A stretch of DNA of 21,724 nucleotides from a virus: IMG/VR virus record IMGVR_UViG_3300046500_000261, positions 1-21,724 of that record, one strand, 5' to 3'. Position 1 is the first letter of the stretch. The number at the start of each line of letters is the position of its first letter. The notes under the pieces were generated by a model. That model saw only the letters and a list, made by a program, of their open reading frames with translations, ran no database searches and had not been told where the DNA came from. Shown here in pieces: positions 1-18,502 of the stretch. The translations under genes were made by a program, and so were the position numbers.

Positions 1-1650
1 TTGCCAGTCGGACTCTTGGAAAATGAGCCCGCCCTGATTGAGCGAGGCCCACAGTGCCGCGTATTGCGTGCGCGAGAGCAGCACGCCGTTGCATTTGATC
101 CAGCCCGCGCGCGGCGTGACGCGCGGCTCCCAGATAATCATGCCGATCTGCGCGTCGCGAATCGCCGAGGTCACAAACTGGGTGTTGGCAAGGCGCGCGT
201 CCTCGGAGCCCTTGGGCCCCGTCGGCGCGGTCGGCACGCCGGTGAGTGCCGGGCTATTGGTGAGTGCGATTGTGCCGAGGTCGGTCGAGTCAACGGTGAC
301 TCTCAGGCCCGAGCCGTCCGCCCCCCAACCCATGTAGAGCTTGTTGTTGCCTTGCGCGATGCCGCCGCCTTGCTGCACCGGCACGTAGCCGAGGCCGCCT
401 TGCTTGGTCGCGAGAATCGCATCGAGTCCTTCCACGCGCGCCACGTCCGTTCGCGCGAACACGAGCGAGGGCGTGACGGCTACGCCCACGGTGCCGAGTG
501 CCTGCACGATGCCGCACGTCCAGCCCGAGGACCAGAATGCGCGGTCGCTTCCGTCGCCGTTTTGCGAAACCATCAACTCGGACGCAAATACGCGCGGGTA
601 CGTCCACGCGGTATTCGTCTCGCCGATCCAGATACAGGGCAGGGCGCCATCGTTGCCAAAGCGCACCGTCATGCCGCGATCCGCCTGATCGCCGAGCACG
701 GCCGCGCTCGCGCTATCCCACGCGAGAGACGTGTTGCAGTGGCCCGCGAGTTGAATCGTCATCGAGCGGCGCGAGGCGAGTTCGAACACCTCGAGGCGCA
801 GCTTGATAAACGAGTCGCGCGAAGCGGAGTTCGGCGGCAATGCGATCTTGATTGCGCCGGTTGCGGAGCCGGTGACAGCGTAGGCGAGGCCGTCCGGGTT
901 GGTGACTCGCAGAATGCCCATCACACCCGAGCCGGTATTGATGCCGGTACGCGCGGGCACGAACTCAGCCGCCATTTCGGCAACCGAATGGCCCCAACGC
1001 TCCCATTTTGTCGGGTTGCTCGCGGGCGCCGCGCCGAGGTTGTTATCGACAAGCGAGCGGTACGTCTTGCCGTCGGTCGCGTAGAGAATGTGCGCGCCTT
1101 TCATGTAGTTGAAAGTCGCGTCGTATTCGCCCATGCCGCGCAGCTTGCCGACGTACTGCGTGTGCGGGTCGGACTTGGCCTCGTGCTGATTGATGAGCGC
1201 GGTCATGCCCGGCACGTCCGTTGTCACCTGCACGGTGACGGAATCGCGCGGGAACTCGGACACGTCGAACGTGTACGCGAACGGCACATCGAATTGCTTG
1301 GACTTGCGGAAAAGCGGCGTGTTGGCTTGGGACCAAACGGCCCATAGCGTGTTGCCCGCGTAGAAGCCGATTTCGCCGATATCGAGGTCGTTGGGACTCT
1401 TGCCGTTCGGATCGGTGTCGGTGATCGTCACGCCTACTTGAACCGAGGTCGGCGTGGGATTCGTGCCGCTCGAGATAGGAAAGCGCGCAACCTCGTTCAC
1501 GAGCGCCACGCGCGCGCCGGCGTTGGCATCGAGCGCATATTTGCCGGTGCCGATTGCGATGTGCGTGAGCTTGACCGCAACGCCGTTGGTGCCCGGCATG
1601 ATTGCAAGGCCGGCGGTCGTGATCTTGGGGTTAAGGACAGGAGTAGCCAT
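1..1650 (-). CDS. Phage tail fibre with tail-collar domain (3' end outside window)
   Basis: The reading frame opens at ATG 1650-1648 and stays open for 550 codons to the left edge, so the C-terminus is missing. The start is preceded by GAGG about 6 nt upstream. The N-terminus (MATPVLNPKITTAGLAIM, then KLTHIAIGTGKY) matches the attachment domain of P2/Mu-type tail fibres, which binds the baseplate. The middle contains a fibre segment with ILATKQGG, YVPVQQGGG and LRVTVDSTDLG. Near the truncated end, AGWIKCNG (W517, C520) followed by LSRTQYAALW is the phage tail-collar signature. Known role of the family: host receptor recognition. It is the last visible gene of the leftward baseplate operon, following the I-like gene at a distance of three genes. 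A TAGGAAAACGC motif lies 58 nt upstream of the start. I am confident of the fibre call; the receptor cannot be told. Confidence 0.9.
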   Translation of the reverse strand, partial: MATPVLNPKITTAGLAIMPGTNGVAVKLTHIAIGTGKYALDANAGARVALVNEVARFPISSGTNPTPTSVQVGVTITDTDPNGKSPNDLDIGEIGFYAGNTLWAVWSQANTPLFRKSKQFDVPFAYTFDVSEFPRDSVTVQVTTDVPGMTALINQHEAKSDPHTQYVGKLRGMGEYDATFNYMKGAHILYATDGKTYRSLVDNNLGAAPASNPTKWERWGHSVAEMAAEFVPARTGINTGSGVMGILRVTNPDGLAYAVTGSATGAIKIALPPNSASRDSFIKLRLEVFELASRRSMTIQLAGHCNTSLAWDSASAAVLGDQADRGMTVRFGNDGALPCIWIGETNTAWTYPRVFASELMVSQNGDGSDRAFWSSGWTCGIVQALGTVGVAVTPSLVFARTDVARVEGLDAILATKQGGLGYVPVQQGGGIAQGNNKLYMGWGADGSGLRVTVDSTDLGTIALTNSPALTGVPTAPTGPKGSEDARLANTQFVTSAIRDAQIGMIIWEPRVTPRAGWIKCNGVLLSRTQYAALWASLNQGGLIFQESDWQ

Positions 1651-1707: not shown

Positions 1708-1718
1708 GCGTTTTCCTA
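1708..1718 (-). promoter_or_regulatory. TAGGAAAACGC motif upstream of tail fibre
   Basis: The minus strand reads TAGGAAAACGC. Its first three bases are the stop codon of the upstream 164-aa gene, and it lies 58 nt before the tail-fibre ATG. The same motif recurs before the other leftward units. Its function as a promoter or factor-binding site is inferred from recurrence and position. Confidence 0.45.
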
Positions 1719-2210
1719 GTCGTCCAAGTAGCTCTCGCCGCCGATGCTGAAAAACATTTCCGAGATTTCACCGGCCATGCCGGCGGCGTCCTCCACTTTG
1801 AGCGCCATGCCGGCCGCGTCCATCACCGCGAGCACCGCAACGGCGCCGTTGCCGATTTCTGACGCAAGCCGATACTTCGTGCCGCTCTCATTCATGCCGT
1901 CCGCTTCGATCCGGTTGCCCGGATCGTGCTTTTGCACAGGCGGCAGCAGTTGGATCGTGCCGATAGCGCGCGCCCGGTAGTAGCGCCGGATTGCGTCCTC
2001 GAAACGGTCCTCGGAAAAGAGCCGGTCGCGCCCGTCCGCGCGCGGGTCGTTGGTCGTCAATAGCGCGCCCTCGAGGCGTTCGGTGAGTGGCAACTCGCGC
2101 GAGACGATGACAAGGCCCGTATCGGGATCGAGCGCGGCGAGAAGGTTCACCGCCGGGCCGAAATAGCCCGCGATGCGCGCCTGTATGCGGATCGCTTTCG
2201 TCTCAGCCAT
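1716..2210 (-). CDS. Hypothetical virion-cluster protein (164 aa)
   Basis: I do not recognise the family. The start is taken at ATG 2210-2208 (MAETKAIR) and not at the longer in-frame ATG at 2243, because the shorter start overlaps the stop of the upstream gene by 8 nt (ATGGCTGA), a typical coupled junction. The protein has an alanine- and glycine-rich C-terminal third ending in IGGESYLDD, with no signal peptide or clear membrane segment. It lies between an unknown 256-aa protein and the tail fibre in the baseplate operon, so a minor virion, tail-assembly or fibre-related role is plausible but unproven. Confidence 0.75.
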   Translation of the reverse strand: MAETKAIRIQARIAGYFGPAVNLLAALDPDTGLVIVSRELPLTERLEGALLTTNDPRADGRDRLFSEDRFEDAIRRYYRARAIGTIQLLPPVQKHDPGNRIEADGMNESGTKYRLASEIGNGAVAVLAVMDAAGMALKVEDAAGMAGEISEMFFSIGGESYLDD

Positions 2211-2973
2211 GTTGCACCGTCTCGATGTTGCCCTCGTCATCAATCGTGGTCGTGCTCGTTGCGCCCTCGCGCGAGAGCGTATCGACTTCGGTAATCACGC
2301 CATAGCCCGCCGGCGCGGCCTTGCCGTCGTTGGGCTCGCCCTTGCGCGGCGCCTGAAAGAGCGGCACGGTCGCGCGGATCGTGATATCGCCCACGAGTAT
2401 CGTGAGGTTCTTCTGATCGACGCCCGTATTGACCGCCCCAAAGTCGATCTGCTCGAGCACGGCCGGGAACTCGTGCGAGAGGCCCGCGAACTCGTGCGTG
2501 TGCATAAAGCGCCGGCCGCCCTCGCCGTTGCACCACAGGTTGAACTGCATCGCGATGGAGTGCGCGGTGCGCTTCTCAGCCGCCGCAATGACGATCTGCG
2601 CGCGGTACTCGTTCGCGCTCGAGCGGGCCTTGTAGGCGCGCTGCAATGGATCGTCGGGAAATGAGATATCGACGGCCGTGCCGACGGCAATGGAGAACTC
2701 GGGGAGCACCGGAGTGAAGTCTTTCGCCACGGCCACGAACACGACAGGCAGCATGGAGGAGAGGCCGGGCTTGCCGGTGTTATCGTTTTTGCGCCACTCG
2801 CTCATCATCAACTCTACTTGGTCGATGATGCGCCCCGGCGCCCACACGATAGCCTTTTTGACATCGCGCGCGCAGTACTCCTCCATCGAGGGCGTATCGG
2901 GCACGAGCGCGTTGAAAAAGCGCACGAGGTATTGGCCGAGGCCCACTTCCACAGGTGTGAGCAGGTCCATCAT
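2203..2973 (-). CDS. Hypothetical virion-associated protein (256 aa)
   Basis: No family is recognised with confidence. The product begins MMDLLTPVEVGLGQYLVRFF and has a mixed alpha/beta composition. It has a helical stretch (RAYKARSSANEYRAQIVIAA), a central HTHEFAGLSHEFPAVLEQ, and a beta-like NLTILVGDITIRATVPLF near residue 205-225. Short proteins with this kind of assembly-domain look, within tail operons of myoviruses, are often tail-completion or terminator proteins; that is an analogy only. The start overlaps the upstream stop by ATGA (2970-2973) and the end overlaps the downstream start by 8 nt, so translation is probably coupled on both sides. Confidence 0.75.
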   Translation of the reverse strand: MMDLLTPVEVGLGQYLVRFFNALVPDTPSMEEYCARDVKKAIVWAPGRIIDQVELMMSEWRKNDNTGKPGLSSMLPVVFVAVAKDFTPVLPEFSIAVGTAVDISFPDDPLQRAYKARSSANEYRAQIVIAAAEKRTAHSIAMQFNLWCNGEGGRRFMHTHEFAGLSHEFPAVLEQIDFGAVNTGVDQKNLTILVGDITIRATVPLFQAPRKGEPNDGKAAPAGYGVITEVDTLSREGATSTTTIDDEGNIETVQHG

Positions 2974-3845
2974 GCGAGCCCGAATTTGCGGCGCACGAGC
3001 GTGAGCGCGTCATCGTTGACCGAGCGCGCCTTTTCCTCGGGCGGCGCCTCGAATGGCGTGAGCGCGCCGGTCTGGAACGAGCGCACGCGCGCCTCAAAAT
3101 CGGCGGTCGCACGCCCGCCGGTGAGCACCGGTGCATGGCCCGTCGAGTCAAGCATCACGGTCTGATCGCCGCCGCGCGCGGCGAGCATCGAGAGCATTTC
3201 CTCGTTCTCCTCGCGCACCCGCTCGAGCGTTTGCATGGCAAGGGTGTGATCCGCTTGCAGCGAGTCGAAAATCGCCATGAATGCGCGCGCTTGGCTTGCC
3301 TGCTCGGCAATGGCCGAATCGAGGATCATGCCGGGCTCGAGCGCATCGGCCGAGTCGAACATCACGCCATCGAGCAGGTAGCCGCGATTGGTCGTGTAGT
3401 TGGGCTCGAGCACGTAGTCAAAGCCGTTGAACTGCGTGGCAACCGAGCCCGCGCGCGAGGGTTCGGCCTTGATTGCCGAGGAGAAGCCGCCGGCCTTGCT
3501 CGAAAAGAGCCGCGCGGCCGTTTGGCCCGGCACCGTATCGAGGAATTCGCTTTCGTGCGTGATCGTGCCGTCGGGCTCGGCGTGCAGGTACGTCGTCACG
3601 AGCGCGGGCTCGATGTAAATCTGCTCGCCACCGTCCATGATCCACTCAGGCGGGCGCATCCCGTATTTCATGCGGATCAGGTGCCCGTAATAGCCGTGCA
3701 GGTCACGGTTTTTCACGCGCTCTTGCACCGCCGGCGAGTTCACAAGGCGCGCGAGCGCGGCCGTGTCGAATTGCCGCTCGGCGCCGTGGTATTTGCGCCC
3801 GCGCTCATGCACGTTGTATTTGATCTTGCCGGTTTTCATTCCCAT
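2970..3845 (-). CDS. Putative prohead protease / scaffold-like protein
   Basis: The first ~130 residues follow the layout of T4 gp21-type capsid maturation proteases. There is an N-terminal strand with NVHERGRKY (compare the NGRxY signature), then VQERVKNRDLHGYYGHLIR with His55. Next come YIEPALVTTYLHA and TITHESEFLDT (His97), then SKAGGFSSAI with Ser122/Ser123 in the position of the nucleophile motif. The C-terminal part is helical and probably coiled-coil (SLQADHTLAMQTLERVREEN), as in a scaffold domain fused to the protease. Role if correct: capsid assembly and cleavage of core proteins. What is odd is the location: it lies between baseplate/tail genes, 5 nt from the I-like gene, and not beside head genes. 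No search was possible, so the assignment rests on motif layout only. Confidence 0.5.
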   Translation of the reverse strand: MGMKTGKIKYNVHERGRKYHGAERQFDTAALARLVNSPAVQERVKNRDLHGYYGHLIRMKYGMRPPEWIMDGGEQIYIEPALVTTYLHAEPDGTITHESEFLDTVPGQTAARLFSSKAGGFSSAIKAEPSRAGSVATQFNGFDYVLEPNYTTNRGYLLDGVMFDSADALEPGMILDSAIAEQASQARAFMAIFDSLQADHTLAMQTLERVREENEEMLSMLAARGGDQTVMLDSTGHAPVLTGGRATADFEARVRSFQTGALTPFEAPPEEKARSVNDDALTLVRRKFGLA

Positions 3846-3850
3846 TGCGC

Positions 3851-5164
3851 TTACCTTGTCAGTTTGCCGATTGCCATAAAGGGCATCACGCCCGATGCGC
3901 CGTTTGCCACGGCAAGCCCGCCCTCGGCGGCGCCGAGGTTTTCGAACACGGTTGAAAGTTGTAGCTCGAGCATCAGCCGCGCGGCGAGCGTGGAGCGAAA
4001 CGCCTTGGTGATTTCGAGCAGGCCAAGCCCGTTGTCGATGGACACAGGCAGCGTCACGCGCACGCGCCCAGTGCGAAACATCGTGAGCGCGGCCGGCGGC
4101 GGCGCGTTGGGCACGTTAAACGTGGCGGTGCCTTGCGCGTCCACCGTGAAGTCCGTCGTCGTCACCGCCGCGCCGACAGTCTTGATGTAGCGCGAGATAC
4201 GGTCGCGCTCGAGTTGCGCGCCCCAAACGTAGAACGTGTCGCCGGCCGCGCCCGTATCGTTTATCGGGTCGATCACGCAGTTCACATAGCCCGAGGCGGC
4301 CGTGAGCGGCACCGTGGCGAGCACGGTTACGCGCGTCCACCCGAGCCCGAGCGTGGCGTAAGTCGCGCCGATGGTGAGGCCCGCCGAGTCCTTCAACCAC
4401 ACGCGCACATCGCCCGTCAGCGTGCCCGAGCGCATCCACACAGACATTGCGTACACCTTGCCCTGCGGCGCGGCATCGTTGAAGTTCTGCCAGATGTAGT
4501 GGTTGCCGGCGGCCGTGCGCGTGACAAGCGCGGCCGTGTTCGTGCCATCGGGCGCAACTGACGCGTTCGGCGTAATCGTGCAGTTGACGCGGCCCCAGTA
4601 GGCGGTGGCCGACGGGAATTCAGAGCCCGTAAAGAGGTTGGTGCGCGCGAACGAAAAGAGTTGCGAGCGGCCTTGCCAGTCCGTCACGAACACATCGGGC
4701 ACGTCCTCGTTGCCTTCCGGGTCGTACACCGCTTCGAAGTTGTTGCCGAGGTCCGTATCGGCAAGCGGCCGGCGGTCGGCGGGGTAGTTCGCCGAGGTGG
4801 CAATCGGATGCCAGAGCGGCTCCACTTTCCACACGCCGGGCCACACCGATTGCAGGTATTGCTTGAGAAAGATGAGCCCGCGCCTCGGATTGCGCGCGCG
4901 TGCGGCCTTGAGCAGAAACGCCGTGCGCGTCGCATCGCGCCGCACGATAGCGAGGCCCCAGTCTTTCAGCGTGCGCTCGATGAGTTCGGTGTTGCCGAGG
5001 TGCGGCATACCCGAGACGTTCACTTGGCGCTCGAGCGGGCGCAGCGTGTCGTTGAACACCTGCATGATGAGCGCCTTGAACTCGGCTTCGAACGCGTCGA
5101 ATTCCGCGCTATTGCGCAGCGGTTGCAGGTCGGGCGCGTCGATAGCGCGCAGAGCCGTTGTCAT
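3851..5164 (-). CDS. Tail protein I-like baseplate protein with inserted sugar-binding-type domain
   Basis: Residues 1-165 resemble P2 gpI / Mu gp48-type baseplate proteins in position and style: it directly follows the J-like gene, 3 nt away, and contains ARNPRRGLIFLKQYLQ. Residues about 166-345 look like an independent jelly-roll module common in phage proteins. The module has NLFTGSEFPSATAYW, then NASVAPDGTNTAALV, then VYAMSVWMRSG, and ends in YVWGAQLERDRISRYIKT. The chain then returns to a baseplate-like C-terminus (TATFNVPNAPPP through VRVTLPVSIDNGLG to residue 437). P2-type gpI is usually around 180-200 aa, so this protein is more than twice the normal length, and the extra length is largely this insert. 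The module family is often linked to carbohydrate binding. Binding a surface sugar at the baseplate is inference. Confidence 0.75.
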   Translation of the reverse strand: MTTALRAIDAPDLQPLRNSAEFDAFEAEFKALIMQVFNDTLRPLERQVNVSGMPHLGNTELIERTLKDWGLAIVRRDATRTAFLLKAARARNPRRGLIFLKQYLQSVWPGVWKVEPLWHPIATSANYPADRRPLADTDLGNNFEAVYDPEGNEDVPDVFVTDWQGRSQLFSFARTNLFTGSEFPSATAYWGRVNCTITPNASVAPDGTNTAALVTRTAAGNHYIWQNFNDAAPQGKVYAMSVWMRSGTLTGDVRVWLKDSAGLTIGATYATLGLGWTRVTVLATVPLTAASGYVNCVIDPINDTGAAGDTFYVWGAQLERDRISRYIKTVGAAVTTTDFTVDAQGTATFNVPNAPPPAALTMFRTGRVRVTLPVSIDNGLGLLEITKAFRSTLAARLMLELQLSTVFENLGAAEGGLAVANGASGVMPFMAIGKLTR

Positions 5165-5167
5165 CGC

Positions 5168-6610
5168 TTAATGGCTCCACTGACCATCGTTGTACGTCGC
5201 CTGCGTCACGTTCACCGTGAGGCTTGCATCGGACACGTAGCGGAACTGCTCGGGCAGCAGATTGGTCTGCGCGGGCAGGGTGATCTGAAAGTCCGAGCCG
5301 TCATCCTGCAAGGCGACGATGTTCTTTTTGAGCGCGTCGGTGATTTTCTTGTTCGACAGGCGGATCATGCCTTGGCGCACGGCCGCCGCGTCGCGCCCGT
5401 AGAGCGCAAGCACCTGCGCGCGAATCTGCGCCTCCACGTCGCCGGTGTCATGCACGACGGACACTTGCGCATTGATCGTGAGGGGCAGCGGGGTTTCCAC
5501 CGCATCAACAAATTTCACCCAGTACGAATCGTCGGCGGCGGCAACCACGTTGCGAATCGACTTTTGCAGCGCCGCGATCTGATCGGCGGTAGTCGCGCCG
5601 TCCGAGAGCACCGCGATAAATTGCCGGTTGATGTTCTGCACGTTGGGCCCGCGCACGCTCTCCTCAACCTGCTCATTCCAGACGGACAGGAATCGCAGGT
5701 TCAGCAGATTGCGGCGGATCAGAAAATCGAAGTTGCCGAGATACACCGCGCTACCGTCATAGCCGCTCGGGTAGGTCGCCAACTGGCGTAGCACCTCGAT
5801 ATCGACGGGATCGGCGCCGGGATTCACGACGCTCGCGAGCTTGAACGTCAGCGCCCGGTCGGCGGTCGTCGTGGTTGCCTCGAGCGTGAATGCCGCGTTG
5901 GTCGCGAGGTCGGTCGCGCCAAGCGTCTCCTCGATGAGCAGCGAGACGGTCGCGCCCGCGTCCGGTTGCGTGCCAAAGGTGTTCGCCCAACCGAATTTCA
6001 CGAACAGGCGCCGTTGCTCATCGGTGACGATATCGAACGCGGGATCGTCGGCGGCCACGTTGGCGAACTCGGGCGCGTAGTAATACTGCGCGCCATCGAC
6101 GCTCACATACACGCCGCTCACGCACTGATCGGCGTCCGAGTTCTCGGGAATCTGCACCGCGTAGAAGGGCGCCGATTGATCGACGGTCGCGCTCTCGGCG
6201 CGCGTGGTCATTTGCTTAACAAGCAGTGTGGCGGTGCCGCCGGCGGGCACGGTCGCGTTGGTCTGCGCGGTGTACACGCGCCCGTTCTGATCGAGCAGGC
6301 GCCGCCCGGCGGTGATTGGCACGCTCACGGTGCCGGGATTGGTCGCCGTGATCGTCATTGTGGGCGGGATCGCGAACGGCAAGATGCCTTTCATGGCCGC
6401 GTCCGCGAGCACGGTCGTGTCACGCGTTTTCGAGAACGGCTCGAGCATCGCAATGTCGAGTTGCTCCGAGAGCATCCCAAACATGGTTGCCACCGCGCCC
6501 ATTGGCGCGAGTAGCGTCGGGTCGCCCGCCTGATAGTAGAGCGCCAGCGCCGGAAAGTTCGTGATTATGGCCGCGAACTTGGCGAGGAAGTCATCGCGCG
6601 TATAAGCCAT
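5168..6610 (-). CDS. Baseplate J / gp6-like wedge protein
   Basis: The start is taken at ATG 6610-6608 (MAYTRDDFLAKF). A longer open frame upstream overlaps the gp25-like gene and has unrelated, low-quality sequence. The 480-aa product shows the usual order of baseplate J/gp6-type proteins. First comes a helical N-terminus (ATMFGMLSEQLDIAML), then ILPFAIPPTMTITATNPGT and VPITAGRRLLDQNGRVYTA, the ring-forming beta region. The C-terminus has DVEAQIRAQVLALYGRDA and LPEQFRYVSDASLTVNV. Known role of the family: wedge subunits that build the baseplate ring and trigger sheath contraction. It lies 1 nt after the gp25-like gene and 3 nt before the I-like gene. This is the strongest sign in the window that the phage has a contractile tail. 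Confidence 0.8.
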   Translation of the reverse strand: MAYTRDDFLAKFAAIITNFPALALYYQAGDPTLLAPMGAVATMFGMLSEQLDIAMLEPFSKTRDTTVLADAAMKGILPFAIPPTMTITATNPGTVSVPITAGRRLLDQNGRVYTAQTNATVPAGGTATLLVKQMTTRAESATVDQSAPFYAVQIPENSDADQCVSGVYVSVDGAQYYYAPEFANVAADDPAFDIVTDEQRRLFVKFGWANTFGTQPDAGATVSLLIEETLGATDLATNAAFTLEATTTTADRALTFKLASVVNPGADPVDIEVLRQLATYPSGYDGSAVYLGNFDFLIRRNLLNLRFLSVWNEQVEESVRGPNVQNINRQFIAVLSDGATTADQIAALQKSIRNVVAAADDSYWVKFVDAVETPLPLTINAQVSVVHDTGDVEAQIRAQVLALYGRDAAAVRQGMIRLSNKKITDALKKNIVALQDDGSDFQITLPAQTNLLPEQFRYVSDASLTVNVTQATYNDGQWSH

Positions 6611-6611
6611 T

Positions 6612-6902
6612 TCAAGCGCCTCCCAAGTCGGTTGCGGTGCCGCCCACTTCGATGAAAATGCGCGTCTTGTCGGGCCCTTCGTTGACCGCGTAGAGGTTGG
6701 TCTGATCGGCCGCCATCGCGCCCACAAGCGGCACGTCTGAGCGCAGCTTGTTGAGCACCGCGTCAGCGAGGCCGCTACGCTGCGGTTGTTGCAGCAGGTC
6801 GGGAACGATGGAGCCGTAGGACGAGCCGAGATAGCCATTCACCGGCGTCTCGAGCCAGTGCTTGACCATGCGTTGCGTGTCGGATGCGGAGATTTTTGCC
6901 AT
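6612..6902 (-). CDS. gp25-like baseplate wedge protein
   Basis: This 96-aa protein opens the leftward baseplate operon. It has the hallmarks of the T4 gp25 / P2 gpW family: a core of LETPVNGYLGSSYGSIVPDL (compare TxxGxxxxxPxxGsxl), a middle helix (LADAVLNKLRSDVP), and a final beta segment TRIFIEVGG. Length fits the family (about 100-140 aa, here at the short side). The family forms part of the baseplate wedge next to gp6, and the next gene here is indeed gp6-like. The start ATG 6902-6900 has no good Shine-Dalgarno sequence. A TAGGAAAACGC motif lies 39 nt upstream, and a small hairpin CTCTG-TCA-CAGAG (6925-6937) lies in the leader. Confidence 0.65.
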   Translation of the reverse strand: MAKISASDTQRMVKHWLETPVNGYLGSSYGSIVPDLLQQPQRSGLADAVLNKLRSDVPLVGAMAADQTNLYAVNEGPDKTRIFIEVGGTATDLGGA

Positions 6903-10583: not shown

Positions 10584-13498
<2,915 letters not shown>

Positions 13499-13502
<4 letters not shown>

Positions 13503-13984: not shown

Positions 13985-14116
13985 GCCGGGAAGGCGGAAA
14001 GGTGCGCGAATCCGACTATCCGCGCGGTGTTGCTTTGCTTTGCGGACTTCGCGCTGCGGTCTATGGCTCACCCATGTGAGAAACAGCTTACGGCCCGCCG
14101 TCAGTGATACTTGTGT

Positions 14117-14127
14117 GCGTTTTCCTA
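14117..14127 (-). promoter_or_regulatory. TAGGAAAACGC motif, leftward, distal to the collagen-fibre unit
   Basis: The minus strand reads TAGGAAAACGC in an AT-rich stretch, 223 nt upstream of the gene at 13894. It may be a second leftward start or an additional factor site in the 383-nt divergent intergenic region 13895-14277. Confidence 0.4.
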
Positions 14128-14156
14128 CACGGATATTCAGATTTCAATAAAAATAC

Positions 14157-14185
14157 TTGCGTTTCAAAACGTGAGCGCATACATT
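14157..14185 (+). promoter_or_regulatory. Sigma70-like promoter P2 with shared 15-mer
   Basis: TTGCGT (14157-14162), 17 nt, TACATT (14180-14185). The stretch AACGTGAGCGCATAC (14168-14182) is identical to that of P1 at 7572-7586. Start near 14192 would leave about 85 nt of leader before ATG 14278. Confidence 0.6.
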
Positions 14186-14277
14186 ATGAACACAGCAGCA
14201 ACGCAGCGAGGCCGGAACAAGTCACCGGCGGCGCGACGCGAAACCCCGATCCAGACCAATCATTGAGGACTAGCAAA

Positions 14278-14580
14278 ATGAAAAAAATCGCATCCGTCAT
14301 CGTCGCCCTGATCGCCCGCCGCAACGCCGCTCGCAACGATGAGCGCGCTCGTTGGGCCGCCATCAAAAACGCCGCCGTCACGCCCGCCGCGCGCGCCGCC
14401 ATCGCGTACACCGAGGAAGCCGCACAGGAGGCCGTGCGCGATATGTTCGGCCCGCACGCGCTGCTCTATCCGAGCGCGGCCGTGCTCACCGCGTTCGCCG
14501 CCTTCGCCATCGAGCAGTATCCGAACGCTGCGCGCGAGACGCCCGCCGTGCAGGCAATCGGCCGCTTCGCCGCGATCTAA
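14278..14580 (+). CDS. Hypothetical protein (100 aa), first gene of second cassette
   Basis: The start is set at ATG 14278 with GAGGA about 8 nt upstream. The longer open frame to 14104 crosses promoter P2 and is not coding. The product is alanine- and arginine-rich and helical (IVALIARRNAARNDERARWA), with a mildly hydrophobic stretch (YPSAAVLTAFAAFAIEQYP) that may be a weak membrane or amphipathic helix. No family is recognised. As the first gene after P2 it is likely expressed early. Confidence 0.6.
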   Translation: MKKIASVIVALIARRNAARNDERARWAAIKNAAVTPAARAAIAYTEEAAQEAVRDMFGPHALLYPSAAVLTAFAAFAIEQYPNAARETPAVQAIGRFAAI

Positions 14581-14607
14581 GCCCCGTCCACAAAGGAGTT
14601 CGCCGCG

Positions 14608-14775
14608 ATGCTGCGCTTTCTGAAAACCCTGTTCGCGATCTACGGCGCGTGTATCGCCGTGATGTATGCGGCCGGAATGCTCGGCATCGGCGAGTTCCGC
14701 ATGTTCTACGGCACATCGGCCACGCTCGCCGAGCGCGTGTCGCAGACGTGCGCTGCATGGCACGCGGACAAGTAA
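14608..14775 (+). CDS. Tiny membrane protein (55 aa)
   Basis: ATG 14608 is preceded by AAGGAG at 14593-14598. The 55-aa product has one hydrophobic segment (LKTLFAIYGACIAVMYAAGM) near the N-terminus and a polar end with one Cys (QTCAAWHADK). It likely spans the inner membrane once. No family is recognised; it belongs to a run of four tiny membrane proteins. Confidence 0.6.
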   Translation: MLRFLKTLFAIYGACIAVMYAAGMLGIGEFRMFYGTSATLAERVSQTCAAWHADK

Positions 14776-14825
14776 GCCGCGCGCCCCGAGCCCGGTTTTT
14801 CACACAACCTCAAAGGAGGTCCGCA

Positions 14826-14969
14826 ATGCTGTTGGCGTTGAAGGCGTTTCTCGCATCCGTAAGCATCGTCACGATCTTTAGCGTGCCGGCGGTGGCCGTC
14901 GGCGCGGGCGGCCTGATCGTGTTGATCTCCGGGCACCACGGCGGCGGCGGCTTTGTCTGCCGAGGCTAA
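14826..14969 (+). CDS. Tiny membrane protein (47 aa)
   Basis: A strong AAGGAGGT (14813-14820) lies 5 nt before ATG 14826. The product is almost wholly hydrophobic (LKAFLASVSIVTIFSVPAV and GAGGLIVLIS), possibly a hairpin of two short segments. It ends in an unusual HHGGGGFVCRG tail, which could bind metal or be a flexible tail. Function is unknown. Confidence 0.6.
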   Translation: MLLALKAFLASVSIVTIFSVPAVAVGAGGLIVLISGHHGGGGFVCRG

Positions 14970-14990
14970 TGCGCTCATGAGGTAGTCGAA

Positions 14991-15018
14991 TCGCCCTCTT
15001 TCGAGAGGGCGAGCGCCC
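14991..15018 (+). other. Two overlapping hairpins, possible weak terminator or attenuator
   Basis: TCGCCCTC (14991-14998) pairs with GAGGGCGA (15005-15012). GGGCG (15007-15011) can instead pair with CGCCC (15014-15018), so the two stems exclude each other. No U-tract follows, so strong termination is doubtful. It lies in a 165-nt gap between the 47-aa and 42-aa genes, just before another promoter-like region. Confidence 0.35.
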
Positions 15019-15293: not shown

Positions 15294-15530
15294 ATGATTA
15301 TCTTCAAGAAACCGCTCTATATCCGCGTGATCGACGCAATCGCAATCGGCATCCTTATGGGCGCGGCTTATGCCGCTATCCCGTTTCTCGCAATGCGCAA
15401 CTGGCAGGAAGCCGGCGGCCTGAAACGCGCCGCCTACCCGGTGGCGTTCGTTGCCCTGCGCGTGCTCATCGCCCTAACGTTTCCGCTCTACGCCCTGCGC
15501 TCGCGCATTGAAGGTCGGAGGCTCGGATGA
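15294..15530 (+). CDS. Small membrane protein (78 aa)
   Basis: ATG 15294 follows CCGAGGAC. Two hydrophobic segments are visible: IDAIAIGILMGAAYAAIPFL and VAFVALRVLIALTFPLYAL, joined by a polar loop with KRAAYP. The basic end RSRIEGRR suggests that both termini face the cytoplasm. The stop overlaps the next ATG (ATGA). Function is unknown; interference with lysis or superinfection exclusion is only a guess from size and setting. Confidence 0.65.
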   Translation: MIIFKKPLYIRVIDAIAIGILMGAAYAAIPFLAMRNWQEAGGLKRAAYPVAFVALRVLIALTFPLYALRSRIEGRRLG

Positions 15531-15997
15531 GCGAACTTCGCAGCATGGAGCAGATTGTGGCGGCGCGTGACGCAACCCTCGCCATCTATCGAGACTCATC
15601 GGAGGACGTGCGCCGAGCGGCCGAGAACGCCGTGCAATACATGCTCGCCGAGTTGCAGGCAAACAATGGTGCGCCCGCGCCCGCCGATTTTGTCGAGTGG
15701 TTCGCGCGCAACTATCCGCGCGATTGCGTCATTTCTGATCCGTCATGGCACGCGCCGAAAATCTTTCGCGTCGCGCGCAACTGCATCGAGGCGGATCGCG
15801 CCGAGCACATCGAGCGCACCGAGAAAGAGGCCGCCAAGGCGCGCGCGCTCGTGCCGGCCGTGCGCGCGCAAGAGTACGTCTCTGATCGGCCGTACTCCAA
15901 GGGCCAAGTCTTTTTTGAGTTCGTCGTCTTGGATCGCGCGAAGTTGCGAGACGGTGACGTGCTTTATCTCTCACCGTCGGAAGGAAAAGCAGCATGA
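15527..15997 (+). CDS. Hypothetical protein (156 aa)
   Basis: The start overlaps the upstream stop by 4 nt. The N-terminal half is helical (MEQIVAARDATLAIYRDSSE and VRRAAENAVQYMLAELQ). The middle has FVEWFARNYPRDCVISDPSW, and the C-terminus has a short beta region (GQVFFEFVVLDRAKLRDGDV). No family is recognised. It is coupled by ATGA to the MazG-like gene, so it may work in the same nucleotide-related step; that is inference from adjacency. Confidence 0.65.
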   Translation: MSELRSMEQIVAARDATLAIYRDSSEDVRRAAENAVQYMLAELQANNGAPAPADFVEWFARNYPRDCVISDPSWHAPKIFRVARNCIEADRAEHIERTEKEAAKARALVPAVRAQEYVSDRPYSKGQVFFEFVVLDRAKLRDGDVLYLSPSEGKAA

Positions 15998-16992
15998 ACA
16001 CAGACGCTATCCGCAACTTGAACAGCGCCGCGCTCGCGCATTGCAGCGCGGCCGGGCTCGAGTCCTTTTCAATCGAGTGGTGGCCTGAGTTCACGCGGTA
16101 CGTGCTCGAGCACGCGCCCGCGCGTGAGGCCCCACCGCCCGCTACCATCGCGGAACTCATCGCCCTGTTGCAAGAGATTCGCCCCGAGTTCGGCGCGGTC
16201 GGATCGCGTGACGTGGACGTGCGCGCGCAACGGGATCGCATCGACGCGGCTATCCCGGCTCTTGCCGCGCTCGCTACGCCCTTTCAGGCGCGCGTACAGC
16301 CTTGGCTTATGGCCTGCTTTGGCGCGATGATCGCGGGCGACAGAGAGGAGCGCAATCACCGCTTTTTCGAGGAGGCCGGCGAGCTTGTGCAATCGCTCGG
16401 CATGAGCGCGCATGAGGCGCATCAGCTTGTCGATTACGTCTGGAATCGGCCCGTTGGCGAGCCGAATCAGGAAGTGGGCGGCACGATGGTGACGCTCGCG
16501 GCGCTATGCCTTGCCAACGCGCTCGATATGCACGCGGCCGGCGAGACGGAACTCGCGCGCGTGTGGACGAAGGTAGAGCAGATTCGCGCCAAGCAGGCCG
16601 CCAAGCCGAAGCATTCGCCCTTGCCTGAGCACGTCGCGGCCAATCCGGGCGCGGGGTATTGGTATGACCGGGCGCGCGACGAGGGCGAGGCGCCCAATCC
16701 GAGCGACAAGCAAGAGCCTATTGGATATGCGTCGCGGCGCCATCTGGACGGGATGGACGAGAAGCACCCCGCACTTGTCTATCCGAAAAGCGAAGACGAA
16801 TGGACGGTGCCCGTCTATGCCGCACCTCTCGCACAGTCCACAGAGAAAGAACTCGCCAATGCGAGCGACAAGCAACCGCCCCGCCGCTTCACTGACGATC
16901 AGATAGCAGCGTTACGCGTCGCGGCTGATAGTTTGATCGAGCGTTACGCGGCGCCGATCCGCGCCATTCTCAGCGATGCGGAGCACGCATGA
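15994..16992 (+). CDS. MazG-like / DUF550 (dATP/dGTP pyrophosphohydrolase-type) protein
   Basis: Residues about 97-211 match the phage DUF550 family of all-alpha NTP pyrophosphohydrolases. They contain FQARVQPWLMACFGAMIAGD, then EERNHRFFEEAGELVQ with the metal-binding EExxE (126-130). VDYVWNRPVGEPNQEVGGTM (Glu160) and LARVWTKVEQIRAKQAAKP follow. These enzymes split (d)NTPs into NMP and pyrophosphate. In phages they may trim the dNTP pool or favour modified bases. The C-terminal part has a module often seen in phage proteins (PIGYASRRHL through EWTVPVYAAP). The N-terminal ~90 residues are helical and unassigned. The exact substrate cannot be read from the sequence. ATGA overlaps join it to both neighbours. 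Confidence 0.75.
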   Translation: MNTDAIRNLNSAALAHCSAAGLESFSIEWWPEFTRYVLEHAPAREAPPPATIAELIALLQEIRPEFGAVGSRDVDVRAQRDRIDAAIPALAALATPFQARVQPWLMACFGAMIAGDREERNHRFFEEAGELVQSLGMSAHEAHQLVDYVWNRPVGEPNQEVGGTMVTLAALCLANALDMHAAGETELARVWTKVEQIRAKQAAKPKHSPLPEHVAANPGAGYWYDRARDEGEAPNPSDKQEPIGYASRRHLDGMDEKHPALVYPKSEDEWTVPVYAAPLAQSTEKELANASDKQPPRRFTDDQIAALRVAADSLIERYAAPIRAILSDAEHA

Positions 16993-17516
16993 GCCTCGAT
17001 GCAACCGCCCTGCTCGTTGATGAGTTCGTGCATCAGAAGCGCATCACCGTGACGCCCGATGAGCGAGCGCGCCTCGCCGCGCTCGCCTCGTTCGTGCTCG
17101 CGAACGCCGTCATCACGCCCGCGCCCGAGCGCACGGCGCGTCACTGTCAGGCGCCCGGCGCCTACGGCTTTGGCGATATCTGCGCGGCGGCGGCGCGCGA
17201 TGGTGTCGTGTGCCCCGAGGACTCGTGCGACATTGACGAAGGAGTGAGGCCCGCGCTCACCGCTTACGAGAAGCGCATCGCGCCGATCTTGCAAGAGAAC
17301 GCGCGCCGCGCCGCCGACGGTCGCGGCCTGCTCGGGTTGCCGGGCAGAACACTCGCCGAGTACATGGCGGGCTACGGTGATCGTCTCGTGCGCGAGGCGA
17401 GCGCCAAGCGCGGGATTTTCGGTCGGAGGATCGAGCGCACGGAACCATGCGTGCATCCTGAAGGTTGTACGCAGTGCAATTGGTGCGGGTTTCGAGCCGA
17501 GAGCGAGGCCGCGTAA
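16989..17516 (+). CDS. Hypothetical Cys-containing protein (175 aa)
   Basis: The start overlaps the previous stop by ATGA. Central cysteines (HCQAPGAYGFGDIC, then VCPEDSC) and a C-terminal CVHPEGCTQCNWC could form one or two zinc sites. The rest is helical (DERARLAALASFVLANAVI). No family is recognised. Its stop overlaps the ATG of the 29-aa zinc ribbon by one base (TAATG). Confidence 0.6.
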   Translation: MSLDATALLVDEFVHQKRITVTPDERARLAALASFVLANAVITPAPERTARHCQAPGAYGFGDICAAAARDGVVCPEDSCDIDEGVRPALTAYEKRIAPILQENARRAADGRGLLGLPGRTLAEYMAGYGDRLVREASAKRGIFGRRIERTEPCVHPEGCTQCNWCGFRAESEAA

Positions 17517-17605
17517 TGTGCGCGCGGTGCGGCGGCCTCGTGATTTTCGAATGGGATGAGTGGTATGTGTGCGCCCGGTGCGGCGCGACGTGGAGAGACG
17601 AGTGA
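17516..17605 (+). CDS. 29-aa mini zinc-ribbon protein
   Basis: ATG 17516 overlaps the upstream stop by one base (TAATG), and its stop overlaps the next GTG start. The sequence MCARCGGLVIFEWDEWYVCA, followed by RCGATWRDE, has CxxC (2-5) and CxxC (19-22), a minimal zinc ribbon. Conserved Gly after each pair and aromatic residues between them fit a real fold. Position in a tightly coupled operon supports translation despite the size. Role is unknown; such ribbons often bind nucleic acids or proteins. Confidence 0.6.
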   Translation: MCARCGGLVIFEWDEWYVCARCGATWRDE

Positions 17606-17826
17606 GCGAAGAAACGAAAGCCCGCGTTGCTGCGGCCCTGAAAGCCATGCGCGACGGATGCGATCAGAACCCGCACGGAATCGCCGTGTCAATGATCGCC
17701 GGGCACACGCTGAAGGTTAAGAAAGACGGCGCGGGCGCAAAGCGTTGGTCCGTTGACGGGAATGCTTGTTCGCAGTTGGATGCGGCGGCGTTTCTCACTG
17801 AGCGGTTCACAAAGGAGCGGGCGTGA
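17602..17826 (+). CDS. Hypothetical protein (74 aa), GTG start
   Basis: The GTG start at 17602 is chosen because it overlaps the previous stop (GTGA); an in-frame ATG at 17560 lies inside the zinc-ribbon gene. A helix (SEETKARVAAALKAMRDGCD) is followed by a small alpha/beta region with HTLKVKKDGAGAKRWSVDG and a final helix. No family is recognised. The stop overlaps the next GTG. Confidence 0.6.
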   Translation: MSEETKARVAAALKAMRDGCDQNPHGIAVSMIAGHTLKVKKDGAGAKRWSVDGNACSQLDAAAFLTERFTKERA

Positions 17827-18272
17827 GCGAACAGACGCAGATTTTCCTTGTGTACGCCGACACGATGTACGAGGGCAGCTATCCGGTGCGCGCATTCGCG
17901 TCCGAGGAGGCCGCCAACGCGTTCGTGCAGCAATGCCGCGACTATGGCGCCACGAGATTGCAACAGCCGGCTCAGAGCGCGTCTGACGCGGAATGGAATG
18001 TGTACTGGGTGAGAGATAAGGAGTGGGAAACCGCGCACCCGGCCGCGCCTTTCACGCAGCACGACTACAGCGTGAGCCCGCTCGCATACAGCGGCGCGCG
18101 CCCGGATATCGCGCCGCTCGCATGGGCGACAACCTACGAGTGCCCGCCGATCACCACGGCGCGCATTGTCGCGGATATGAATGAGCGCCAGCGCGAGTAT
18201 GTCGTGCGCCACGCCGCGCGGATCGTGGAGCTTGTGCCCGGCCGCGTCATTAAGGGAGCGCCTTTCGCATGA
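17823..18272 (+). CDS. Hypothetical protein (149 aa)
   Basis: The GTG start overlaps the previous stop. The N-terminal ~60 residues show a beta-alpha pattern (IFLVYADTMYEGSYPVRAF and SEEAANAFVQQCRDYG) that recalls phage proteins with a short alpha/beta fold for which no role is known. The middle part has EWNVYWVRDKEWE and the end is helical (NERQREYVVRHAARIVELVP). The stop overlaps the following ATG. Confidence 0.6.
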   Translation: MSEQTQIFLVYADTMYEGSYPVRAFASEEAANAFVQQCRDYGATRLQQPAQSASDAEWNVYWVRDKEWETAHPAAPFTQHDYSVSPLAYSGARPDIAPLAWATTYECPPITTARIVADMNERQREYVVRHAARIVELVPGRVIKGAPFA

Positions 18273-18502
18273 GCACAAAAAGCGACGATCCAAACCTGTT
18301 GACCGCCCTGCTACTCCTGCAAATGGGCCTCGATGGTGGCAACCCCGAGTTCGGCACGCTCGAGGACTATGCGGCGGCGGCGCATTCGTTCGTGCATGTG
18401 CATTGCACCGGCAACCATTCATGGGACAAGGCGCCCGCGATGTTGGCGCGCATTCAGACGGCCGCCGTCGTGCAGGCGGCGGCGCGCGGGCCGCTCGCAT
18501 GA
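18269..18502 (+). CDS. Hypothetical protein (77 aa)
   Basis: ATG 18269 overlaps the previous stop by 4 nt. The product is helical with a short His-rich centre (HSFVHVHCTGNHSW) that could bind a metal ion. The rest (LLTALLLLQMGL at the start, MLARIQTAAVVQAAA at the end) is amphipathic. No family is recognised. The stop overlaps the next ATG. Confidence 0.6.
   Translation: MSTKSDDPNLLTALLLLQMGLDGGNPEFGTLEDYAAAAHSFVHVHCTGNHSWDKAPAMLARIQTAAVVQAAARGPLA

Follow-up and report, generated by a model that had tools for sequence, protein, structure and literature searches.

The pro locus and its neighbours

The window, i.e. the whole stretch of DNA analysed here, is a 21,724-base virus fragment (IMGVR_UViG_3300046500_000261), and the gene under study is termed pro hereafter. 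Orthologs in many phages and conserved neighbours mark pro as a real gene, and an ATGA overlap joins its stop to the start of the next gene. The features of the locus are collected in Table 1.

Table 1. Genes and predicted features at the pro locus, in window coordinates
Feature	Coordinates	Strand	Basis or comment
Tail fibre carrying a tail collar domain, extending beyond the window	1..1650	minus	Pfam PF07484 at 24.8 bits (cut-off 24); tail families of PHROGs
ORF of 175 aa, phrog_4179	1716..2243	minus	usually accompanies pro and the terminator
Predicted tail terminator (P1 gp24/T4 gp15-like), 256 aa, PHROG 4333	2203..2973	minus	fold; next gene after pro
pro, predicted prohead (head maturation) protease, 291 aa	2970..3845	minus	ATG start; tblastn, hhalign, fold
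Predicted self-cleavage region of Pro	3147..3371	minus	LLD159-G, MFD164-S, ILD176-S, IFD194-S, MLD233-S
Long tail helix of Pro, residues 172-223	3177..3332	minus	AF2 model
Asp143 codon, predicted third catalytic residue	3417..3419	minus	GFDYVLEP, 84/84; T4 gp21 GVDAVWGP
Ser122 codon, predicted nucleophile	3480..3482	minus	GGFSS, 84/84; T4 gp21 PGVSS
His97 codon, invariant, no counterpart in the T4 triad	3555..3557	minus	84/84
His55 codon, predicted catalytic His	3681..3683	minus	G-x-x-x-H-x-x-R, 84/84; T4 gp21 GELNHPPR
Protein of 437 aa between bplA and pro	3851..5164	minus	N-terminal part phrog_4620
BplA-like baseplate wedge	5168..6838	minus	phrog_1369, E 3.2e-124 from residue 78; hhalign to P1 BplA 99.4%
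ORF of phrog_4683, possibly PmgA/T4 gp25-like	6612..6902	minus	weak hhalign to PmgA, 22.8%

The order of transcription is the possibly PmgA-like ORF, the BplA ortholog, the 437-residue protein, pro, the 256-residue protein, the 175-residue ORF and the tail-collar fibre, all on the same strand, which agrees with a preliminary description made from the letters of the DNA that had placed the gene inside a baseplate operon. The true start of the BplA-like gene is probably near 6610, and the 437-residue protein would, from its position, be a second baseplate wedge protein; neither it nor the 175-residue ORF matched a P1 protein by hhalign.

The 256-residue protein aligns weakly with P1 gp24 in sequence (hhalign 3.2%), and its identification comes from an AlphaFold2 model (pLDDT 87.2), whose best match is 8jan_A (P1 tail, 260 residues; Foldseek E 1.1e-10; VIA Z 16.2, rmsd 3.5, 216 residues), followed by many terminators, T4 gp15 among them. 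The P1 tail terminator is gp24, with 261 residues, according to the available text of PMC12810830, and chain A of 8jan would, judging by its length, be gp24. The modelled fold suggests a function for PHROG 4333, labelled as of unknown function, namely that it is a family of tail terminators.

Homology and predicted fold

The window Pro matched 24 records of a phage collection by tblastn, including P1 Pro (30% identity, E 5e-18, 87% cover), a 'prohead core protein protease' of Xanthomonas phage Rb1 (39.3%, E 5e-50), phage D6 (29.5%, E 1e-12), and proteins of Acinetobacter phage ABMM1 and Cronobacter phage JK004 that are annotated as hypothetical. Comparing P1 Pro with the window Pro by hhalign gave 100% (E 3.6e-48), and the window protein matches PHROG families 30560 (E 2.4e-100, residues 1-280), 4727 and 1801 (E 5.8e-32), i.e. 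the P1 Pro family, with homology over most of its length. The window pro is an ortholog of phage P1 pro, whose product is a predicted prohead protease. In the parts of PMC9024508 that are available, P1 Pro is described as detected in virions by three peptides, as a predicted prohead protease with a predicted location in the head, and as compared with HK97 gp4 by HHpred; the accessible texts of two further papers describe P1 pro as essential by CRISPRi (PMC10695390) and name Pro as the enzyme cutting the P1 capsid protein and DarA (PMC12810830).

Database names for this gene diverge. PHROG 1801 bears the label 'tail fiber protein', a name also given to pro in the RefSeq entries for P1, P7, D6, SJ46, RCS47 and Ro157c2YLVW (in P1 at 13989-15008 of its locus record); the GenBank twins of those entries have Pro, ProB or head processing.

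Searching Pfam (E 0.1) or PDB sequences with the window protein returned no peptidase, and the 77-row family profile gave five matches to PDB sequences (E 0.67-9.3), mostly coiled-coil/helical proteins and no peptidase. Peptidase S78 (PF04586) was likewise without a Pfam match for the window protein and was absent from the 25 of 70 chance-level Pfam families listed for the other 76 family rows. Membership of the HK97/S78 group was considered and dropped. Pfam S78 was matched neither in the window protein nor in the records of nine relatives (0/9), a difference from HK97 gp4 (S78). Peptidase S77 (PF03420), the gp21 sequence family, gave no Pfam match at E 0.1, and hhalign of the family against T4 gp21 gave 25% (E 0.00077) with an alignment that spans the His and not the Ser.

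An AlphaFold2 model of the window Pro was built from 77 family sequences (mean pLDDT 82.5). Ten-residue blocks of residues 1-150 average pLDDT 81-98, and a poorly predicted linker and the long tail helix follow, the latter corresponding to what had been described beforehand as a coiled-coil tail. The best PDB match of the model is T4 gp21 (5jbl; Foldseek E 2.5e-4, probability 1.00; VIA Z 10.5 over 127 residues, with rmsd 2.8 A and 13% identity); herpesvirus proteases come next, none above Z 6.6. Seventy BFVD viral models match at E <= 1e-3, and among the 50 of these that were listed 19 are named head or prohead protease and many others are nameless. It is the predicted fold that links the family to gp21, the sequence profiles not tying the two firmly. 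The reading of the gene as capsid-protease-like is borne out by its homology to P1 Pro, by the structural match to a T4 gp21/herpesvirus protease fold and by an intact His-Ser-Asp set (see below), and the window Pro is almost certainly a protease.

Tail motifs of Pro and the capsid junction

The relatives used were the 80 best of the 368 from the viral scan and all 24 from the genome scan, and a conservation set of 110 sequences was reduced to 84 that are non-redundant at 90%. Position 123 in the protease domain is not conserved in these 84 rows (68 Ser, 12 Trp, 4 Thr), and it was used to set two classes of Pro: 72 Ser/Thr rows (window-type) and 12 Trp rows (P1-type).

The two classes carry different acidic motifs in their tails. 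The 72 window-type tails contain 164 (LMIFVY)-Asp-Ser motifs, found in 69 rows and missing from three, against a shuffle mean of 17.6 and a maximum of 34 in 1000, and Glu-Ser is at chance in them (17 vs 15.3). The 12 P1-type tails contain 46 Glu-Ser motifs, present in 12/12 rows (shuffle mean 5.7, maximum 15), with Asp-Ser at chance (3 vs 2.6). In 110/110 rows residue 123 pairs in the same way with the acidic residue at column 159, Trp with Glu and Ser/Thr with Asp, and tail column 233 is Asp in 70/72 window-type and Glu in 8/12 P1-type rows. Of the six patterns in the first viral scan one carried a tail motif, and the seven loci that it found were all returned by patterns free of it.

Enrichment was also evaluated protein by protein. 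The window Pro has four (LMIFVY)DS motifs where shuffling gives 0.29 (p at its floor, 0.0025), and no other of the window's 24 non-overlapping ORFs is enriched. In P1, where 35 structural proteins were compared, Pro alone reached the p floor for Glu-Ser (five motifs, two of them in the domain), and gp24 had a nominal p of 0.045 for Asp-Ser. For the Burkholderia vietnamiensis G4 plasmid pBVIE05 (CP000621.1), Pro alone of 34 proteins tested was at p 0.001, the next being at 0.012, and all four Asp-Ser sites of the window Pro recur in the Pro of this plasmid. The annotation of pBVIE05 is mostly hypothetical; it resembles a complete phage-plasmid of P1 type from the window's lineage, with portal, capsid, sheath, terminase and DarA/DarB-like proteins. 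The Pro of a near-complete relative, G001, has two tail motifs and is not among the rows listed for the ORF enrichment comparison. Other possible substrates gave no support: the DarA-like N-termini of window-type phages share no common cut motif, and homologs of P1 gp21 do not align at a motif. It is only a suggestion that a site LLE68|A in P1 DarA would fit residues 1-69, which are unresolved in that protein according to the accessible text of PMC12810830.

The major capsid protein of P1, gp23, is cut at E120|S121, as determined by Edman sequencing, and Pro is considered the likeliest enzyme in the available part of PMC9024508. The context of this cut is AMLE|SVAA. The window has no capsid gene, and the junction was read from the capsid proteins of relatives, 54 of which (12 P1-type and 42 window-type) could be aligned across it. 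Rows L080b and L047 were dropped for want of the N-terminal region, and rows obtained by genome search were read as open frames running from the last stop, with no start chosen. The junction column is Glu in 11/12 P1-type rows, the miss being L103 (a Lys in a frame that holds a stop), and Asp in 42/42 window-type rows, or 9/10 and 37/37, respectively, at 90% non-redundancy. The residue before it is Leu or Phe in 12/12 P1-type and 37/42 window-type rows, and the residue after it is Ser in 11/12 and 39/42. Motif counts within single capsid proteins were weak for pBVIE05 (p 0.15) and lower in p for G001 (0.0075); among the 114 ORFs of G001, an unrelated ORF of 182 residues had p 0.005 and one of 158 residues p 0.0075 for the Glu motif, so that single-protein counts there mean little.

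Predicted cleavage specificity

Junction and tail motifs taken together suggest that window-type Pro is an Asp-specific protease, which I consider likely, and it is nearly as likely that enzyme, tail sites and capsid junction changed together on one branch, separating an Asp-cutting from a Glu-cutting lineage. The Glu class forms one side of a single tree branch (12/84 rows, support 100/100), and the Asp/Glu change on it, in either direction, is one event, so the row counts are not independent.

The proposed mechanism would begin with an N-terminal serine protease domain of the herpesvirus/T4-gp21 type (about residues 1-150) joined to the helical tail, which probably places Pro inside the prohead. 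There, Pro would free the major capsid protein of a scaffold-like segment at its N-terminus and would trim the Pro tail at the recurring (L/F)-Asp|Ser sites, so that the helix comes off and head maturation can proceed; the cut would fall after Asp in the window lineage and after Glu in P1-type relatives. This account as a whole, of a head-maturing, P1-like prohead protease with a catalytic triad, a helical tail, cuts after Asp and a gene order characteristic of its lineage, is held to be highly probable.

An alternative, judged unlikely, also sees a head protease, in which the (L/F)DS sites are assembly or targeting motifs, or which still cuts after Glu elsewhere. The available text of PMC5694885 describes both T4 gp21 and the phiKZ-group proteases as cutting after Glu. 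Moreover, other acidic columns swap too: Pro column 48 goes the same way as the tail sites (Glu in 12/12 P1-type and Asp in 63/72 window-type rows), and capsid column 247 goes the opposite way (Asp in 12/12 P1-type and Glu in 41/42 window-type rows), column 90 being mixed. Against this stand the identity of the junction column with the mapped P1 site, the Leu/Phe and Ser that surround it in most window-type rows, and the chance level of Glu motifs in window-type tails. The open-access literature searched, outside which most subscription papers lie, showed neither an Asp-specific prohead protease nor a window-type phage whose capsid cut has been mapped.

For a cut after Asp, residue 123, next to the predicted catalytic Ser, is one candidate specificity residue and position 48 another. 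The idea that residue 123 sets specificity alone was rejected, as T4-family proteases have Ser there, yet T4 cuts after Glu.

Predicted catalytic residues

His55, Arg58, His97, Gly120, Ser122, Gly141, Asp143, Val145 and Pro148 are each found in 84/84 rows, the best 80 of 368 viral relatives included, a conservation that is partly conditional on selection because the patterns of the viral scan contained the segment around His55 or that around Asp143, and those of the genome scan the segment around His97 or that of Ser122-Ser/Trp123, a locus needing only one of the two. The residues named in the preliminary description, His55 in GYYGH, His97 in THES (ITHESE in the protein) and Ser122/Ser123 in GGFSSA, were verified at their positions in the ORF, and its catalytic reading probably holds for His55 and Ser122 but not for Ser123, which varies, or for His97, which lies between His55 and Ser122 and not after the Ser.

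In a 27-row alignment of the T4 family, His85, Ser140 and Asp168 are invariant (GELNHPPR, PGVSSRG and GVDAVWGPS in T4), residues 85 and 140 of gp21 presumably being catalytic. The structural alignment ends at residue 147 of the model and 172 of the T4 chain, an offset of 25 that is also the offset between Asp143 and Asp168. As far as the accessible text of PMC5694885 goes, the triad order of the gp21 group is His-Ser-Asp, with an Asp C-terminal to the Ser as third residue. A His-Ser-Asp set in this order was found in the window family by motif and by conservation and, since motifs, conservation, published order and the offset all agree with gp21, the predicted triad is most likely His55-Ser122-Asp143.

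The triad His55-His97-Ser122, as first suggested, is improbable. His97 is invariant, and herpesvirus proteases do use a second His, which is C-terminal to their Ser; the window family, however, has no conserved His at that place, and the G-x-D-x-V-x-x-P motif around Asp143 is also present in T4 gp21. The Asp after the Ser as third residue of the gp21 group (PMC5694885, available text) likewise argues against it. With Asp143 completing the triad, His97, for which T4 has no counterpart, may assist.

Gene order and the case for a head function

Gene order was surveyed in 110 loci, near-duplicates included and with the best 80 of 368 as viral relatives; one locus (L007) carries a Pro identical to the window's. 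The order of the window is found in 40 loci; in 26 others the terminator follows pro, and the major capsid gene lies 3.5-6 kb downstream. Another 24, including P1, D6 and JK004, have the portal gene upstream of pro and no terminator next to it. In 16 loci, short ones included, the terminator is next and neither of the others was seen nearby, and four fit none of these patterns. Added up, 82 of the 110 loci (40 + 26 + 16) have the terminator next after pro. Baseplate genes follow in eight of the 24 portal-pro loci (L012, L013, L051, L053, L056, L067, L080 and L099), an order intermediate between those of P1 and the window.

Directly following the portal gene is a feature of P1 that does not define the family, and it was not found in the window, where the terminator comes next and baseplate genes lie upstream. 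P1 also keeps its capsid gene apart from other head genes, according to the part of PMC9024508 that is available. The gene order that had been flagged as unusual is so by the practice of T4 and HK97, but not within the lineage, where the 40 loci share it, and the position of pro between baseplate-wedge and tail-terminator/fibre genes is read as a lineage trait and not as a tail function.

A separate prohead protease, which by the preliminary description would have refuted the assignment, was searched for in relatives, the window's own genome being represented by a 21.7-kb fragment. PF04586 and PF03420 were run on nine records (P1, D6, Rb1, ABMM1 and five virus records), and PF01343, PF00574, PF05929 and a gp21 profile on seven (P1, Rb1, pBVIE05 and four virus records); the virus records may be fragments, and families unlike those scanned would escape. 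None was found: PF04586 gave 0/9 (controls detected in 4/14), PF01343 0/7 (11/14), PF00574 0/7 (12/14), PF05929 0/7 (1/14) and the T4 gp21 profile 0/7, with T4 itself found (1/1). PF03420 gave 0/9, but it also detected no control and is therefore uninformative.

That the protease fold was reused for tail or baseplate assembly, with head maturation lost, had been raised in the preliminary description and is very improbable. It draws on the flanking genes, i.e. baseplate wedge, tail terminator and tail fibre. It does not sit well with the place of pro after the portal in 24 loci and near the capsid gene in 26, with invariant catalytic residues, with a cleavage-site signature in which capsid junction and Pro tail change in step, with no other protease having been found in the searched relatives, or with the essentiality of P1 pro and the assignment of P1 Pro, found in virions, to the head (PMC9024508, available text). 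A tail fibre protein, as the phrog_1801 label and the RefSeq product name of P1 pro have it, can practically be dismissed, since fold and conservation, like the P1 literature, point to a protease, and GenBank P1 records say Pro. The initial identification of a head protease holds, its gene-order puzzle becomes a trait of the lineage, and the predicted change of specificity is the new point.

Relation to known head proteases

P1 Pro and the window Pro, as orthologs, share the domain, its invariant residues and an acidic tail site at column 159; P1 Pro differs in the Trp at 123 and the Glu-Ser tail motifs, and P1 pro follows the portal gene, unlike the window pro. T4 gp21 (Pfam Peptidase_S77) belongs to MEROPS U9, and herpesvirus assemblins, which belong to S21, show a distant likeness of fold (Z up to 6.6). 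The likeness of gp21 to the window Pro lies in the predicted fold, the His-Ser-Asp order and the local motifs at all three residues, and the differences are the lack of a significant profile match and the long helical tail of the window Pro. T4 gene 21 lies between the scaffold genes 68 and 22, whereas the window pro is among tail genes, and T4 cuts after Glu (PMC5694885, available text), the window Pro, by prediction, after Asp. The phiKZ-group proteases (MEROPS S80; SPN3US gp245) share the His-Ser-Asp set and have a known C-terminal self-cleavage, with several sites in some propeptides, as predicted for the tail of the window Pro, but they cut after A/S/G-x-Glu, according to the accessible texts of PMC5694885 and PMC10052503.

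If the prediction is true, one family would include head proteases of two kinds, Glu-cutting and Asp-cutting, whose substrates are known, exchanging a few residues in laboratory phage proteins would allow a test of how head protease and capsid co-evolve, and likely processing sites could be read simply in many uncultured phages. The results also indicate that RefSeq and PHROGs mislabel P1 pro as 'tail fiber'.

Two further stretches of the window stood out. At 10584-13502 on the minus strand lies a 972-residue fibre-like protein in which many collagen repeats precede a GDSL-type lipase/esterase domain, and at 15527-18502 a run of plus-strand ORFs with several 4-base overlaps opposes the late-gene strand. 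Ten plus-strand ORFs were scanned, one of which matched PHROG 8593 (E 3.1e-73) and one PHROG 37665 (E 2.3e-24), both function-unknown families.
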